Below, in pieces: positions 64-35,059 of a stretch of DNA of 64,000 nt (the first letter of the stretch is position 1; every line of letters starts with the position of its first letter). A program made the position numbers and the translations under genes. This DNA is from Haemophilus parainfluenzae (lineage in GTDB: Bacteria; Pseudomonadota; Gammaproteobacteria; Enterobacterales; Pasteurellaceae): positions 1,855,001 to 1,919,000 of the forward strand of contig NZ_UGHY01000002.1 in assembly GCF_900450995.1 (NCBI RefSeq). The letters run 5' to 3'. The notes beneath the pieces are model-generated. The model saw only the letters and a program-made list of their open reading frames with translations, was not told the DNA's origin and did no database searches.

Positions 64-89
64 TGATCTGACCCCAAAAAGTTAGACTG

Positions 90-977
90 TTATTTAAAGG
101 ATTGTTTTCGATATTGTATCGGACTCAGTCCTTTTAATTTTAGTTGAATCCGTCGATGATTATAGTAATCCAAATAATTTATGACAGCATCAACTATCTC
201 TTCTTTTGTTTTAAATTCTCGACCATAAAAACATTCCGTTTTTAATCGCCCAAAGAAACTTTCCATCGCGGCATTGTCCAAGCAATTCCCTTTTCTTGAC
301 ATACTTTGAATAATGCCATATTCAGCCAAGATTCAACGATAAGCTACCATTTGATATTGCCATCCCTGGTCTGAATGCAAAATGACACCACAAGCTTTAT
401 TTAATCCTTTGACAGCTTGCATTAACATGTCCTCTACTTGCGCCCAGTTTGGGGAATAGCTGAGATTATAGGAGACTATCTCATTGTTAAATAAGTCTAA
501 AATTGGGGATAAATAGACTTTACTCCCATCTTTCGCCTTAAACTCGGTGATATCGGTCACCCATTTTTGTTTCGGGGCTGTTGCGCTAAAATTACGTTCA
601 ATATGATTTGGGGCAATCACCCCTATCGTGCCACGATAGGTCGTAAATTTCTTGCTTTTTCTTGACCGCACTTGAAGCCCAAGTGTCTGCATTAAACGTT
701 GAACTTTTTTATGATTCACGCCTGGCAAGCTGGCATGAACACGTCGGTAGCCATAATCAGGATGATTGGCTTTGATGCGTTTAATGGCCTTTTTCAGCGG
801 CTCATCCTTATCCGGTTTAATCTGACGTTTCGCAAAAAACGTACTACGCGCTAACTGTGCAAAGCCTAAAAGCCATTTTAACGGATAACGTGTTCTTAAC
901 CTTTGGATAATTTCCGTTGCTCGGCTTCGTCCTGAAGCCTGAGCCTTCTCAACTCCTTTAGGTAGGCCACCTCCGCT
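90..977 (-). pseudogene. IS3 transposase orfB, nonsense mutation
   Basis: This is the DDE integrase-core half of the transposase, made in these elements by a -1 frameshift from orfA. Conserved blocks are visible: WVTDITEF, HSDQGWQYQ and NCLDNAAMESFFGRLKTE, the last carrying the final catalytic Glu. At 333-335 the codon CGA (Arg in copy 2, after MVAYR) has become TGA, which cuts the protein just after the second catalytic Asp region. The frame is otherwise open from 977 to 90. The copy probably cannot make active transposase but could be moved by copy 2. Confidence 0.88.
665..673 (-). repeat. Uptake signal inside IS copy 1
   Basis: An exact ACCGCACTT (AAGTGCGGT on the minus strand) lies inside transposase orfB, at codons for QVRS. 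The same signal is at 32364-32372 in copy 2. Confidence 0.9.
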
Positions 978-1249
978 TCAAGCTGTAAAATTCTCAGGCG
1001 TAAACGGTCTTCTTCAGTTTTGGGTGGCGGTGGCATTTTTGCATATTTGGGTTTCATTGGCGGTCGTCCTGATGGTTTACGGGGAATCAGTCCTTTTATG
1101 CCACTTTTTTCAAACCGTTTCAACCATGTCCTGACTAGGGCGTTGGAAGGAATATTGTAAAAACGCGCGGCTTCTCTAATACTCATTTTCCCATTCAAAA
1201 TAGGTTGAAGAACCTGTAATTTAAATTCGATTGCGTAGTGTTTACCCAT
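896..1249 (-). CDS. IS3-family transposase OrfA (copy 1)
   Basis: This 117-residue protein is the DNA-binding half of an IS3-family transposase. Residues 1-60 form a helix-turn-helix that begins with MGKHYAIEFKLQVLQ, and a leucine-rich coiled coil follows (RLRILQLEAEVAYLKEL, about 82-100). It differs from copy 2 at only a few residues. In intact elements OrfA acts with, or is fused by frameshift to, OrfB. Here orfB is broken, so OrfA alone would at most bind the ends and repress. Confidence 0.88.
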   Translation of the reverse strand: MGKHYAIEFKLQVLQPILNGKMSIREAARFYNIPSNALVRTWLKRFEKSGIKGLIPRKPSGRPPMKPKYAKMPPPPKTEEDRLRLRILQLEAEVAYLKELRRLRLQDEAEQRKLSKG

Positions 1250-1362
1250 AAAAAAATCTGCACCTCAATTGTTGGTTTGTTGAGTCCAACTTTTGGGGTG
1301 CAGATCAAAATGATCGCACTTTTTTATGAATTTTTAATCACAACTTATCATTTACAAAAAAA

Positions 1363-30232: not shown

Positions 30233-31708
30233 ATGAATTCTGTTGAATTATTAATGAATGTTACGCCCAATGAAACCCGCGTTGCGTTGGTGGAAACGGG
30301 CGTTTTAAAAGAAGTTCATATTGAACGTCAAGCCAAACGTGGCATCGTGGGGAATATCTATAAAGGGCGAGTAACCCGTGTTTTACCGGGGATGCAATCT
30401 GCGTTTGTGGATATCGGTTTAGAAAAAGCCGCATTTTTACACGCTTCCGATATTGTTTCACATACCGAGTGTGTGGATGTGAACGAACAAAAGCAATTCC
30501 GTGCAAAAAGCATTTCTGAACTCGTACGCGAGGGGCAGGATATCGTGGTACAAGTGGTGAAAGATCCTTTGGGCACCAAAGGCGCAAGATTAACCACCGA
30601 TATTACGTTGCCTTCTCGTTATCTTGTTTTTATGCCTGAAAATAGCCATGTGGGTGTATCACAACGTATTGAAAGCGAAGAAGAACGCGCAAGATTAAAA
30701 GCGCTAGTTGAGCCTTTTTGTGATGAATTAGGCGGCTTTATTATTCGTACTGCTACCGAAGGCGCAACGGAAGAAGAATTGCGCCAAGATGCAGAATTTT
30801 TAAAACGCTTATGGTGTAAAGTGCTTGAGCGTAAAGGCAAATATCCAACCCGTTCTAAAATTTATGGCGAACCTGCATTGCCACAACGTATTCTGCGTGA
30901 TTTTATCGGTGCTAATTTAGAGAAAATTCATATCGATTCCAAACTTTGTTTTAACGAAGTGAAAGAATTTACCGATGAATTTATGCCTGAATTAAGTGAT
31001 AAATTAATGCTTTATACGGGCAGTCAGCCGATCTTTGATATTTATGGTGTAGAGCGTGGCATTCAAAATGCACTTGAAAAACGCGTAAATTTAAAATCAG
31101 GTGGATATCTCATTATTGAACAAACCGAAGCCATGACGACCATTGATATCAATACGGGCGCATTCGTTGGCCATCGAAATTTAGATGAAACCATTTTTAA
31201 CACCAATATTGAAGCCACTAAAGCCATTGCACAGCAGCTACAACTGCGTAATCTAGGCGGTATTATCATTATTGATTTTATTGATATGCAAACCGATGAG
31301 CATCGTAATCGCGTGATTGAATCCTTGGAAGAGGCCCTATCAAAAGATCGCGTAAAAACGAATGTAAATGGTTTTACTCAACTTGGTTTAGTGGAAATGA
31401 CGCGTAAACGTACTCGCGAAAGTTTAGAGCACGTTTTGTGTGATGAATGCCCAACTTGTCAAGGTCGTGGACGCGTAAAAACGGTTGAAACAGTATGCTA
31501 TGAAATTATGCGTGAGATCATTCGCGTTAACCACTTATTTTCGAGTGAACAATTTGTGGTTTATGCCTCTCCAGCCGTAGCGGATTATTTAATCAAAGAA
31601 GAATCGCACGGTTTATTGCCAGAGGTTGAAATGTTCATCAGCAAACAGGTTCAAGTCAAAACAGAACAGTACTACAACCAAGAACAGTTTGATGTGGTGG
31701 TGATGTAA
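30233..31708 (+). CDS. rng: Ribonuclease G
   Basis: This 491-residue endoribonuclease matures the 5' end of 16S rRNA and degrades mRNA. Order: S1 domain (about 38-125), 5' sensor/RNase H-like region, catalytic DNase I-like region with TTIDINTGAF (about 302-311) and the IIIDFIDM block, then the zinc-link CPTCQGRG (about 405-412). It lacks the long RNase E tail. Its downstream uptake-signal terminator is split by IS copy 2. Confidence 0.95.
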   Translation: MNSVELLMNVTPNETRVALVETGVLKEVHIERQAKRGIVGNIYKGRVTRVLPGMQSAFVDIGLEKAAFLHASDIVSHTECVDVNEQKQFRAKSISELVREGQDIVVQVVKDPLGTKGARLTTDITLPSRYLVFMPENSHVGVSQRIESEEERARLKALVEPFCDELGGFIIRTATEGATEEELRQDAEFLKRLWCKVLERKGKYPTRSKIYGEPALPQRILRDFIGANLEKIHIDSKLCFNEVKEFTDEFMPELSDKLMLYTGSQPIFDIYGVERGIQNALEKRVNLKSGGYLIIEQTEAMTTIDINTGAFVGHRNLDETIFNTNIEATKAIAQQLQLRNLGGIIIIDFIDMQTDEHRNRVIESLEEALSKDRVKTNVNGFTQLGLVEMTRKRTRESLEHVLCDECPTCQGRGRVKTVETVCYEIMREIIRVNHLFSSEQFVVYASPAVADYLIKEESHGLLPEVEMFISKQVQVKTEQYYNQEQFDVVVM

Positions 31709-31787
31709 AAGACAAAAGTGCGGTCAAATTGATCTGCACCCCAAAAGTTGGACTCAACAAACCAACAATTGAGGTGCAAATTTTTTT

Positions 31788-32141
31788 ATGGGTAAACACT
31801 ACACAATCGAATTTAAATTACAGGTTCTTCAACCTATTCTAAAAGGAAAAATGAGCATTCGAGAAGCAGCTCGTTTTTACAATATTCCTTCCAACGCCCT
31901 AGTCGGGACATGGTTGAAACGGTTTGAAAAAAATGGCATAAAAGGACTGATTCCCCGTAAACCATCAGGACGACCGCCAATGAAACCCAAATATGCAAAA
32001 ATGCCACCGCCACCCAGAACTGAAGAAGACCGTTTACGCCTGAGAATTTTACAGCTTGAAGCGGAGGTGGCCTACCTAAAGGAGTTGAGAAGGCTCAGAC
32101 TTCAGGACGAAGCCGAGCAACGGAAATTATCCAAAGGTTAA
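31788..32141 (+). CDS. IS3-family transposase OrfA (copy 2)
   Basis: This 117-residue protein has an N-terminal helix-turn-helix (about 1-60) and a C-terminal leucine-rich coiled coil (about 82-100). It provides DNA binding for transposition and is the upstream part of the OrfAB fusion. Its end overlaps the orfB frame from 32060 onward. An A-AAG motif at about 32077-32080 is one possible shift point, but no classical slippery heptamer is visible. Confidence 0.9.
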   Translation: MGKHYTIEFKLQVLQPILKGKMSIREAARFYNIPSNALVGTWLKRFEKNGIKGLIPRKPSGRPPMKPKYAKMPPPPRTEEDRLRLRILQLEAEVAYLKELRRLRLQDEAEQRKLSKG

Positions 32142-32947
32142 GAACACGCTATCCGTTAAAATGGCTTTTAGGTTTTGCACAGTTAGCGCGTAGTACGTTT
32201 TTTGCGAAACTCCAGATTAAACCGGATAAGGATGAGCAGCTGAAAAAGGCAATTAAACGCATCAAAGCCAATCATCCTGATTATGGCTACCGACGAGTTC
32301 ATGCCTGTTTACCAGGCGTGAATCATAAAAAAGTTCAACGTTTAATGCAGACACTTGGGCTTCAAGTGCGGTCAAGAAAAAGCAAGAAATTTACGACTTA
32401 TCGAGGCACGATAGGGGTGATTGCACCGAATCATCTTGAACGCGATTTTAGCGCAACGGCCCCGAAACAAAAATGGGTAACTGATATCACCGAGTTTAAG
32501 GCGAAAGATGGGAGTAAAGTCTATTTATCTCCAATTTTAGACTTATTTAACAATGAGATAGTCTCATATAATCTCAGCTATTCCCCAAACTGGGCGCAAG
32601 TAGAGGACATGTTAATGCAAGCCGTCAAAGGATTAAATAAAGCTTGTAGTGTCATTTTACATTCAGACCAGGGATGGCAATATCAAATGGTAGCTTATCG
32701 TCGAATTTTAGCTGAACATGGCATCATTCAAAGTATGTCGAGAAAAGGGAATTGCTTAGATAATGCCGCAATGGAAAGTTTCTTTGGACGATTAAAAACG
32801 GAATGTTTTTATGGTCGGGAATTTAACAGTAGAGAAGAGATAGTTGATGCTGTCAGGGATTATTTGGATTACTATAATCATCGACGGATTCAACTAAAAT
32901 TAAAAGGACTGAGTCCGATACAATACCGAAAACAGTCCTTTAAATAA
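32060..32947 (+). CDS. IS3-family transposase OrfB (copy 2)
   Basis: This is the DDE integrase catalytic half, in the -1 frame relative to orfA. The frame is open from 32060 (the limit given here) with no good ATG near its head, so expression as an OrfAB frameshift fusion is likely. An HTH-like region (YGYRRVHACLPGVNHKKVQRLM) precedes the catalytic core with TDITEF (Asp), HSDQGWQYQ (Asp) and AAMESFFGRLKTE (Glu). Arg replaces the stop found at the matching place in copy 1. Confidence 0.85.
   Translation, partial: SGGGLPKGVEKAQTSGRSRATEIIQRLRTRYPLKWLLGFAQLARSTFFAKLQIKPDKDEQLKKAIKRIKANHPDYGYRRVHACLPGVNHKKVQRLMQTLGLQVRSRKSKKFTTYRGTIGVIAPNHLERDFSATAPKQKWVTDITEFKAKDGSKVYLSPILDLFNNEIVSYNLSYSPNWAQVEDMLMQAVKGLNKACSVILHSDQGWQYQMVAYRRILAEHGIIQSMSRKGNCLDNAAMESFFGRLKTECFYGREFNSREEIVDAVRDYLDYYNHRRIQLKLKGLSPIQYRKQSFK
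32364..32372 (+). repeat. Uptake signal inside IS copy 2
   Basis: Exact AAGTGCGGT followed by CAA within orfB. It gives the mobile element its own DNA uptake mark. Confidence 0.9.
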
Positions 32948-32998
32948 CAGTCTAACTTTTTGGGGTCAGATTAAATTCGACCGCACTTTTTACCTTAA

Positions 32999-34396
32999 CT
33001 ACTTCAATCTTTCTAGTTGCTGAATAATGGCTTCATCAGGTTGTGATTGGATTTTTCGCATACGTATAAAGAGTAAAGTGGCGGCAATGGTTAATGCAAT
33101 GATAAACGCAACCCAGAAGCCTTTTGCACCGATGCTTGGAACAATCCAATCCGTTCGGGAAAGAATATACCCAACAGGGATACCTACGCCCCAATAAGCA
33201 AGTAACGTGATATAAAGGATGATTTTTGTGTCTTTATAGCCACGTAAAATACCGCTCACAACGACTTGTACTGAATCTGAAAATTGATAAATCGCCGCCA
33301 TTGCTAATAAGCTGCCTGAAAGGGCAATAACGGTGGCATTATCTCCTACAATTAATGCGGCAATCTCTGCACTAAATACCCAAATCACTAATGCTAATAC
33401 ACTTGCTGCGATCAAGCCAAGAATAATAGCGGCGTGAGCCATGATTTTGGCTTTTTGTGGCGCATGATTACCGAGCTCTTGCGCCACTAAAATGGTTGCC
33501 GCCATCGCAATAGACATTGGGAACATAAAGGCTACGGCACTGGTGTTTAAGGCAATTTGGTGGCTGGCGACCACATCTGCGCCTAATGGGGAAAGTAATA
33601 AACTACTTAAGGCAAACAGTGAGACTTCACTGCACAGCGCAATGGCAATAGGTAAACCAAGTGCGGTCAATTTTTTCAGTGTTTTGATGTCAGGTTTTTC
33701 AATAATCTTTTCAAAGACTTTCAAACTACGTTCATTATAGTTTTTGGCCGAATAGGTAATCATCAATATTGCCATCGCCCAGTTGACAATAGCCGTTGCT
33801 ACACCACAACCGATACCGCCCAGTGCAGGTGCACCAAATTTGCCGTAAATAAACATATAATTCAGTGGAATATTCAGCATTAACCCCATGAAGGTAATCA
33901 CCATAGCCGGTTTGGTCTTAGCAATGCCATCATTCAAACAGCGGAAATTAATCAGCAATAAATAGGCTGGTAAGCCCCATACCATCGCACGCAAATAATT
34001 CATCGTCACATCAGCCATGTGGGCATCCATATTCATAAACTGTAATATGAAATCATTATGATAGATGATGAGTGCAAGGGGAATCATCACTAAAAATGAA
34101 ATCCAAAGGCCTTGTCTAACTTGGTGGGCAATGCGATGGCGCTGCCCAGAACCGTTTAAATAGGAAATTGTTGGTGGCAAGGCGAGTAATAACCCCTGCC
34201 CGAAAAGTACCAAAGGTAGCCAAATGGAGGCACCAATACCGACACCGCCTACATCAGCCGAGCTTACACGCCCCGCCATAATCACATCCACGGTGCCCAT
34301 GCCAGTTTGAGCTAACTGGGCAAGACCGATAGGTGTCGCAATTCGGATAAGTTTTTTAATATCAATACGGTATTGAGAAAAAAGACGAGAATTCAT
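32999..34396 (-). CDS. hmrM: MATE-family multidrug efflux pump
   Basis: This 465-residue sodium- or proton-coupled exporter has twelve hydrophobic spans and the MATE signatures in [28 protein letters not shown] (about 16-43) and [12 protein letters not shown] (about 245-256). Length matches H. influenzae HmrM and E. coli MdtK. The start is set at MNSRLF (34396). A longer frame to 34480 would run across the divergent ribE promoter and start, and is rejected. It shares a 45-bp intergenic region with ribE. Confidence 0.9.
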
Positions 34397-34402
34397 AAAT
34401 TT

Positions 34403-34411
34403 TGCTATAAT
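34403..34411 (+). promoter_or_regulatory. Extended -10 promoter of ribE
   Basis: TGCTATAAT, an extended -10 box, is 30 bp before the ribE start. The leader is too short for an FMN riboswitch. Confidence 0.5.
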
Positions 34412-34441
34412 ATTGGAAAAATTTTTAATGAAGGAATAATA

Positions 34442-35059
34442 ATGTTTACAGGTATTGTACAGGGCATCGCCCAAATTCATGCAATTAAAGACAGCGATAA
34501 TTTTAGAACACAGATCGTAAAATTACCAGCTGAAATGCGAAAAGGCTTAGAAATCGGTGCATCAGTGGCAAATAATGGCGTGTGTTTAACAGTAACTGAA
34601 ATTTACGATGATCTAGTGAGCTTTGACTTAATGCAGGAAACCTTGCGCATCACCAATCTCGGTAACTTAAAAGCCGGGGATTTTGTGAATATCGAACGTG
34701 CAATGCAAATGGGCGCAGAAATTGGTGGGCATATTTTATCTGGTCACGTTTATTGTACCGCAAGCGTTTCACAAATTATTGAAAGCGAAAACAATCGTCA
34801 GGTTTGGTTTAAATTACCTACTAAAGACGTGATGAAATATATTCTTACCAAAGGATTTATCGCGATTGACGGCATAAGCCTTACCATCGGTGAAGTGAAG
34901 AATGATGAATTCTGTGTAAATTTAATTCCAGAAACCCTACATCGAACCCTGATCGGCAAACGTCAAATCGGTGATTTAGTGAATATCGAAATTGATCCGC
35001 AAACACAAGCGATTGTAGATACGGTGGAGAATTATTTAAAAGCAAGAGGATATAGTTAA
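34442..35059 (+). CDS. ribE: Riboflavin synthase alpha subunit
   Basis: This 205-residue enzyme dismutates two lumazines to riboflavin. Two homologous lumazine-binding domains are visible: MFTGIVQG (1-8) with NGVCLTV (about 42-48), then HILSGHV (about 98-104) with IDGISLTI (about 141-148). ATG at 34442 is the family start, and GAAGGAAT precedes it. It stands alone; other rib genes are not in the window. Confidence 0.95.

Follow-up and report, generated by a model that had tools for sequence, protein, structure and literature searches.

The analysed window is a stretch of 64,000 nucleotides of Haemophilus parainfluenzae DNA. The element studied here is an IS3-family insertion sequence that lies between the converging ribonuclease G (rng) and MATE-family transporter genes, flanked by two inverted arms of the uptake signal sequence (USS), here called a USS dyad. 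The features of the locus, together with those of a second copy in the same window, are given in Table 1. The junctions of the element read AAAAGTGCGGTCAAAT / TGATCTG...CAGATTA / AATTCGACCGCACTTTT. Its ends are of the IS3 type, which is TGATCTG...CAGATCA in most copies, the window copy ending in ATTA. The sequence-only reading had placed the element at 31711..32992, where it is indeed found, but that span includes the flanking arms and the true ends are at 31730 and 32973.

OrfB matches the NCBIfam model transpos_IS3 with 327 bits (cut-off 160) and the Pfam domains rve and rve_2. The frames of orfA and orfB are different and overlap, and a fused OrfA-OrfB product is presumed to be made by frameshifting. 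OrfA has 117 aa and a single HTH_28 domain, and the long OrfA with two helix-turn-helix (HTH) motifs that occurs in relatives is absent from this element. Among the 120 matches listed by the protein search there was no specific element name; they include entries called ‘IS3 family transposase’ and one related to H. influenzae HI_1721. We take the element to belong to the IS150-like group, with the limits of this group as generally understood; IS150 is the closest named element among plasmid records.

Table 1. Features of the window element and its surroundings, with the second copy in the window and the odd-spacing dyads that contain element-end letters
Feature	Position	Strand	Basis
Ribonuclease G gene (rng), upstream of the dyad	30233..31708	+	NCBIfam equivalog, 935 bits
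USS dyad left arm AAAAGTGCGGTC, core AAGTGCGGT at 31716-31724	31714..31725	+	letters; empty dyads in sister genomes
Target duplication AAT (3 bp), left copy	31727..31729	.	letters
IS3-family element, 1,244 bp, ends TGATCTG...CAGATTA	31730..32973	+	ends from copy comparison
orfA, 117 aa, one helix-turn-helix (HTH_28)	31788..32141	+	
orfB reading frame lacking an ATG start, rve/DDE transposase	32060..32947	+	
USS core AAGTGCGGT within orfB	32364..32372	+	exact in 61/76 clade A copies, 0/51 clade B
Target duplication AAT (3 bp), right copy	32974..32976	.	letters
USS dyad right arm GACCGCACTTTT, core at 32980-32988	32979..32990	-	letters; empty dyads in sister genomes
MATE-family transporter gene, 3′ end facing the dyad	32999..34480	-	NCBIfam subfamily matE
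Second window copy (locus L034), likewise between USS arms	64..1307	-	letters
CAGATC/GATCTG dyads L266-L273	G074:C1:352550, 418547, 602467, 722675, 943152, 1985413; G077:C2:124151; G081:C1:161593		

Removal of the element and one AAT joins the flanks as AAAAGTGCGGTC-AAATTC-GACCGCACTTTT, which forms a 6-nt loop on a perfect 12-bp stem; the 3-bp duplication and the restored hairpin are letter by letter those described in the sequence-only reading. This hairpin folds with -18.5 kcal/mol, and 0 of 200 shuffles folded as well. The dyad starts 5 nt past the stop codon of ribonuclease G, and on its opposite side is the 3′ end of the MATE-family gene; since it stands between the 3′ ends of the two genes, it has the position of a putative terminator for both. 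A terminator rebuilt from an IS end and one USS arm was also considered for the occupied state and was rejected for its weak folding at the two junctions of the window element (z -0.3 and -1.8).

The two arms are present without the element at the rng site of five sister genomes (G081, G073, G072, G080 and G076). Genome G074 has imperfect arms and a short extra stretch (L226), the site is decayed or one-armed in G077 and G075 and absent in G078, and G079 gave no clear answer. The gene beyond the dyad is conserved in G081, G074 and G073 only.

The family search found matches at E <= 1e-100 in 12 of 140 genomes, which belong to two genera. The genome of the window has about 40 copies, comprising 38 near-full matches and two shorter ones (40 of 255 candidates were scored). 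For the clade of the window element, named clade A, these 40 loci were fetched together with 40 from six other genomes. Excluding two loci with no locatable ends (L048 and L146) and two with flanks identical to others (L163 and L165), 76 flank-distinct copies were scored, at 63 sites in seven genomes of two genera (39, 17, 12, 3, 3, 1 and 1 copies per genome). The set includes rearranged copies, L044 and L047 among them; the partial-match genomes G059, G061, G065, G067 and G078, partial matches within the scored genomes, and short left-end matches stayed outside the set. The pairs L162/L163 and L164/L165 of genome G058 have identical flanks on two contigs in opposite orientation, which suggests a duplicated or doubly assembled stretch. 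Locus L047 (G000:C2:918800-921532) is joined on its left to the interior of another element copy, beside the internal USS of that copy.

In all 76 clade A copies the inner edge of a USS core (AAG[TA]GCGGT, at most one mismatch) lies 3-7 nt from the junction, as against 80 of 37,074 controls (0.2%). Inverted cores on both sides (at most two mismatches, within 25 nt) were found in 63 copies, and in 27 of 11,407 controls taken from the same flanks (0.24%); the other 13 copies have a single arm, and none is armless. The sequence-only reading had proposed that the element targets inverted USSs as IS1397 and ISKpn1 target REPs, had asked how insertions would score against chance, and had named as its refutation a majority of other copies without an inverted USS; the proposal withstands this refutation, as most copies lie between inverted USSs. 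The distance from the junction to the nearest core is 5 nt for 47 copies and 6 nt for 23, together 70 of 76. Target duplications of 3 bp occur in 38 copies, 4 bp in 22, 5 bp in one and 2 bp in four, with none in 11; thus 61 of the 76 copies have a duplication of 3-5 bp, and those with no or a 2-bp duplication include the rearranged L044 and L047. As expected of a putative Rho-independent terminator as target, whose empty site would be a hairpin with A and T tracts behind a gene, a hairpin spanning the junction was scored at 62 of the 76 sites and at 14 of 1,602 controls.

Of the 53 copies that combine two arms with a 3-4 bp duplication, 35 have their cores 7-9 nt apart and 11 have them 19-22 nt apart. 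In H. influenzae, USS pairs show two spacing peaks at about 8 and 19-22, according to part of an earlier study (PMC1852404). In the 19-22 class the junction lies close against one arm, and this constant distance to one core in long-loop dyads rules out a plain targeting of the loop. Duplication-bearing insertions also occur beside lone USSs (L015, L018 and L154), and other copies with duplications (L019, L021 and L158) lie in the AT tract next to, but not within, a hairpin whose arms are in the opposite order. These insertions suggest a reading of the core that does not require a loop. Insertion in the loop, as formerly described, is not quite the rule, which is a distance of 5-6 nt from one core, also in long-loop dyads and at a few lone USSs.

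Not all dyads are used equally. The arm order AAGTGCGGT...ACCGCACTT is favoured, with 23 of 28 duplication-bearing copies as compared with 44 of 144 available arms (p 6e-7), where the 44 dyad arms include 13 called coding by a crude gene map. Short-spaced dyads are occupied in 27 cases and empty in 41, while long-spaced dyads are occupied in 3 and empty in 41 (p 8e-5), a comparison in which empty dyads are exact and hand-counted, occupied dyads may have mismatches, and one occupied and two empty dyads of middle spacing are excluded. The occupancy of short-spaced dyads is thus up to about 4 in 10 (27 occupied and 41 exact empty). The genome of the window contains 84 empty exact dyads of the favoured order and 31 two-armed occupied ones, about a hundred sites, which falls short of the hundreds of harmless sites once expected.

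It could be argued that the USS arms are part of the element ends and travel with them, as copy matches run into the flanks (query 4-1281 of 1282). The arms, however, vary by site and co-vary: the sites carry AAGTGCGGT or AAGAGCGGT, and the variable core base matches on both sides in 57 of the 63 two-armed copies. In addition, the duplications fall inside the arms, and the same dyads exist without the element in sister genomes. In the comparison with sister strains that the sequence-only reading had called for, the dyad was found without the element at the rng site and at four further sites, one of the queries covering five of nine prepared sites. The L010 site has no element in nine sister genomes, of which two show an extra stretch, and the same holds for the L017 and L029 sites in six each and for the L024 site in four. 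The arms of one site are complementary at -18.3 kcal/mol, which is only slightly better than the -16.3 kcal/mol of swapped arms (own arms better in 65%); because this test was weak, the argument relies on the co-varying core base. The empty dyads of sister species and the co-varying arms indicate that the arms are part of the target, which rules out their belonging to the element and leaves this explanation with practically no probability. At three sites, two species have insertions in opposite orientation (L024/L136, L037/L145 and L132/L156), so these dyads received independent insertions. An insertion close to random, followed by selection that spares only the copies in harmless terminators, would agree with the location of copies between genes and of dyads in intergenic regions. 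Nevertheless, random insertion and survival would not produce a fixed offset of 5-6 nt, with 0 of 76 copies lacking a core at 3-7 nt, and the use of one dyad in both orientations also speaks against it; the offset rules out survival as the only cause, and we regard the explanation as highly improbable.

A stronger alternative is that any stable Rho-independent terminator hairpin or cruciform is recognised, and that USS dyads are hit since they are common terminators in Haemophilus. The greater use of short-spaced over long-spaced dyads agrees with it, as do the relatives of clade A, whose duplication-bearing copies are in ordinary terminators or hairpins in 23 of 31 and 16 of 22 cases. A census of terminators in 464 kb of the window's genome (the window and twenty 20-kb stretches) gave 257 to 75 terminator-like hairpins, depending on the threshold, of which USS dyads form 19% to 44%. 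Of the hairpin insertions in this genome, by contrast, 29 of 30 have a USS dyad as their site (Fisher p 1e-17 to 1e-7), although non-USS hairpins make up 56-81% of the sample; separate home-made rules served to score the census and the insertion sites. The thirtieth (L028) has one exact USS arm, and the remaining 9 of the 39 copies gave no hairpin score. The one-armed and outside-hairpin insertions retain the distance to the USS core, and in long-loop dyads one core lies close to the junction, which a recognition of hairpins in general would not explain. We therefore consider this alternative unlikely for the window element, with a small probability left to it.

The relatives of clade A form two further groups. 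Clade B comprises elements of other Pasteurellaceae (H. aegyptius, Avibacterium, Mannheimia and others) with 56-62% OrfB identity, a length of 1.39-1.43 kb, ends the same or nearly the same as those of clade A, and 3-4 bp duplications. A duplication of at least 3 bp is present in 31 of 51 flank-distinct clade B copies, and hairpins account for 23 of the 31 (control 11 of 1,095), 19 of the 23 being non-USS; one of the elements, L199, is inserted in the ordinary terminator AAAAAAGCTCCGATTAA/TAAGTCGGAGCTTTTT. In six clade B hosts (G064, G067, G023, G026, G029 and G138) the same USS occurs in hundreds of copies. They contain 15 copies with a duplication, 10 of them in hairpins, and these hairpins are non-USS in 8 of 10 cases, as against 1 of 54 for clade A in same-USS hosts (p 9e-8). 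Many Avibacterium copies have no duplications and look recombined, and the ends of clade B locus L223 were not located. Clade C, more distant and from outside the Pasteurellaceae, has 16 of 22 duplication-bearing copies in hairpins (control 37 of 626). A USS core at 3-7 nt from the junction was found in 11 of 51 clade B copies and in 0 of 27 clade C copies.

The phylogenetic tree, which leaves out ten chosen rows without a full OrfB, grouped clade A in a monophyletic clade (100/100). Its sister is the Actinobacillus indolicus element L072 (pair 99/95, midpoint root), a two-HTH element located in a generic terminator. By a loose motif count, two HTH-like motifs are present in 41 of 47 OrfA segments of clade B, which are mostly 175-179 aa long, while those of clade A have 117-135 aa with one motif in 54 of 69 and none in 15 of 69. 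As the relatives target terminator hairpins in general, the targeting of USSs looks like a derived specialisation within a palindrome-targeting lineage. The simplest reading is that terminator targeting came first and the specialisation on USSs later, along with the loss of an HTH unit. The difference between one and two HTH motifs accompanies the change from generic terminators to USS dyads and may be its cause; it is a single event on the tree, and thus the link is a correlation only.

Several Pasteurellaceae species have in common one clade B insertion whose 40-base flanks are identical (L074, L077, L078, L208-L212 and L214), which suggests a shared mobile region. In Pseudomonas peradeniyensis, seven loci of a clade C relative (L116, L118, L119, L123, L124, L125 and L127) lie in one family of palindromic repeats, which are REP-like in appearance and are hit in both orientations. 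The plasmid-borne IS150 and ISKpn8 resemble the window element in OrfB (54-55% identity over 97%, among plasmid records), in their related ends and in having two long ORFs, but are grouped in the tree with non-Pasteurellaceae elements, apart from clades A and B. Both plasmid copies (L277 and L278) are located just upstream of a hok-family gene, and the junction of L277 is flanked by inverted GTTAAT/ATTAAC. IS150 itself may choose hairpins, judging from the letters at this junction.

Dyads with an odd spacing of 11-16 nt are found in the genomes of the genus that have full copies, with 8 in G074, 7 in G081, 3 in G077 and 2 in G000, and with 0-1 each in the other seven genomes of the genus. Since G000 has the most copies but only two of these dyads, their number does not follow copy number. 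Element-end letters, CAGATC or GATCTG, were found by hand count in 8 of 23 odd-spacing dyads. Eleven odd-spacing dyads were fetched, five of which are at sites that are occupied in a sister genome (L270 at L027, L272 at L034, L275 at L043, L267 at L135/L148 and L266 at L143). The dyads with element-end letters are probably scars of lost copies, and the junctions agree with a microhomology deletion between GGTCA or GGTGCA of an arm and the same letters in an element end. Dyads in which a repeat encloses CA or TA, such as AAT-CA-AAT, are possibly another kind of scar, and occur at the rng site (L226), at the L010 site of G074 and G081 (L263 and L244) and at L274-L276. The element L143 is present in a G081 dyad whose G074 counterpart is scarred, which suggests that sites are re-used.

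Taken together, we consider it highly probable that the element belongs to an IS3-family, IS150-like lineage that integrates at extragenic palindromes, and that its clade is specialised on inverted USS pairs of Haemophilus in terminator position. The sequences show integration 5-6 nt beyond a AAGTGCGGT-type core, in most cases with an inverted core on the far side as well, and mostly with duplications of 3-4 bp. The same dyads are hit repeatedly and in either orientation, in strong preference to the other terminator-like hairpins of the genome. The OrfAB transposase probably reads the USS core and the adjoining AT tract, and the second arm may assist as a second half-site or through a cruciform. 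IS3 elements transpose through an element circle, and OrfAB would act on such a circle here by analogy with other IS3 elements.

High selectivity for an abundant extragenic palindrome has been described for other IS3-family elements, namely IS1397 and ISKpn1 of enterobacteria and ISPsy8 of Pseudomonas syringae, which are highly selective for REPs and whose transposases set the choice of target, per evidence cited in PMC1525189. The likeness lies in this selectivity, transposases aside, and the target differs, being REP there and a USS dyad here. The sites used by the window element belong to a known class, the USS-pair terminators of Pasteurellaceae, which the consulted portion of PMC1852404 does not describe as a target of mobile elements. 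In open-access titles and abstracts we found neither an IS directed to USS pairs nor the terminator targeting of this lineage, and an earlier description in the subscription literature is possible.

A wider interpretation, which we put forward as a tentative and rather doubtful one, is that a terminator-targeting element shed an HTH unit and became a reader of the USS as a DNA sequence. With up to about 4 in 10 short-spaced dyads filled, a USS of its own, and losses by deletion between the element end and matching letters of an arm, each of which would leave behind a USS hairpin as a renewed target, the spread of uptake signals, the evolution of terminators and transposition would form one cycle, to which transformation would add movement. 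The internal USS core means that a fragment holding the element and its dyad carries up to three USSs. An advantage in transformation from proximity to preferred DNA, as the sequence-only reading had supposed, finds no backing in the consulted portion of PMC7811141, in which a second USS within 100 bp does not improve uptake and wider spacing is left without a conclusion.

Uptake signals are repeats of very high abundance. Their inverted pairs have so far been explained mainly by transcription termination, and the use of these pairs as a landing pad by a mobile element adds a new player. The existence of two clades with matching ends and related hosts, which differ in HTH number and in target, makes the question of how IS3 elements choose their targets testable. 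In addition, insertion into terminators could alter the read-through between neighbouring genes at dozens of places per genome.
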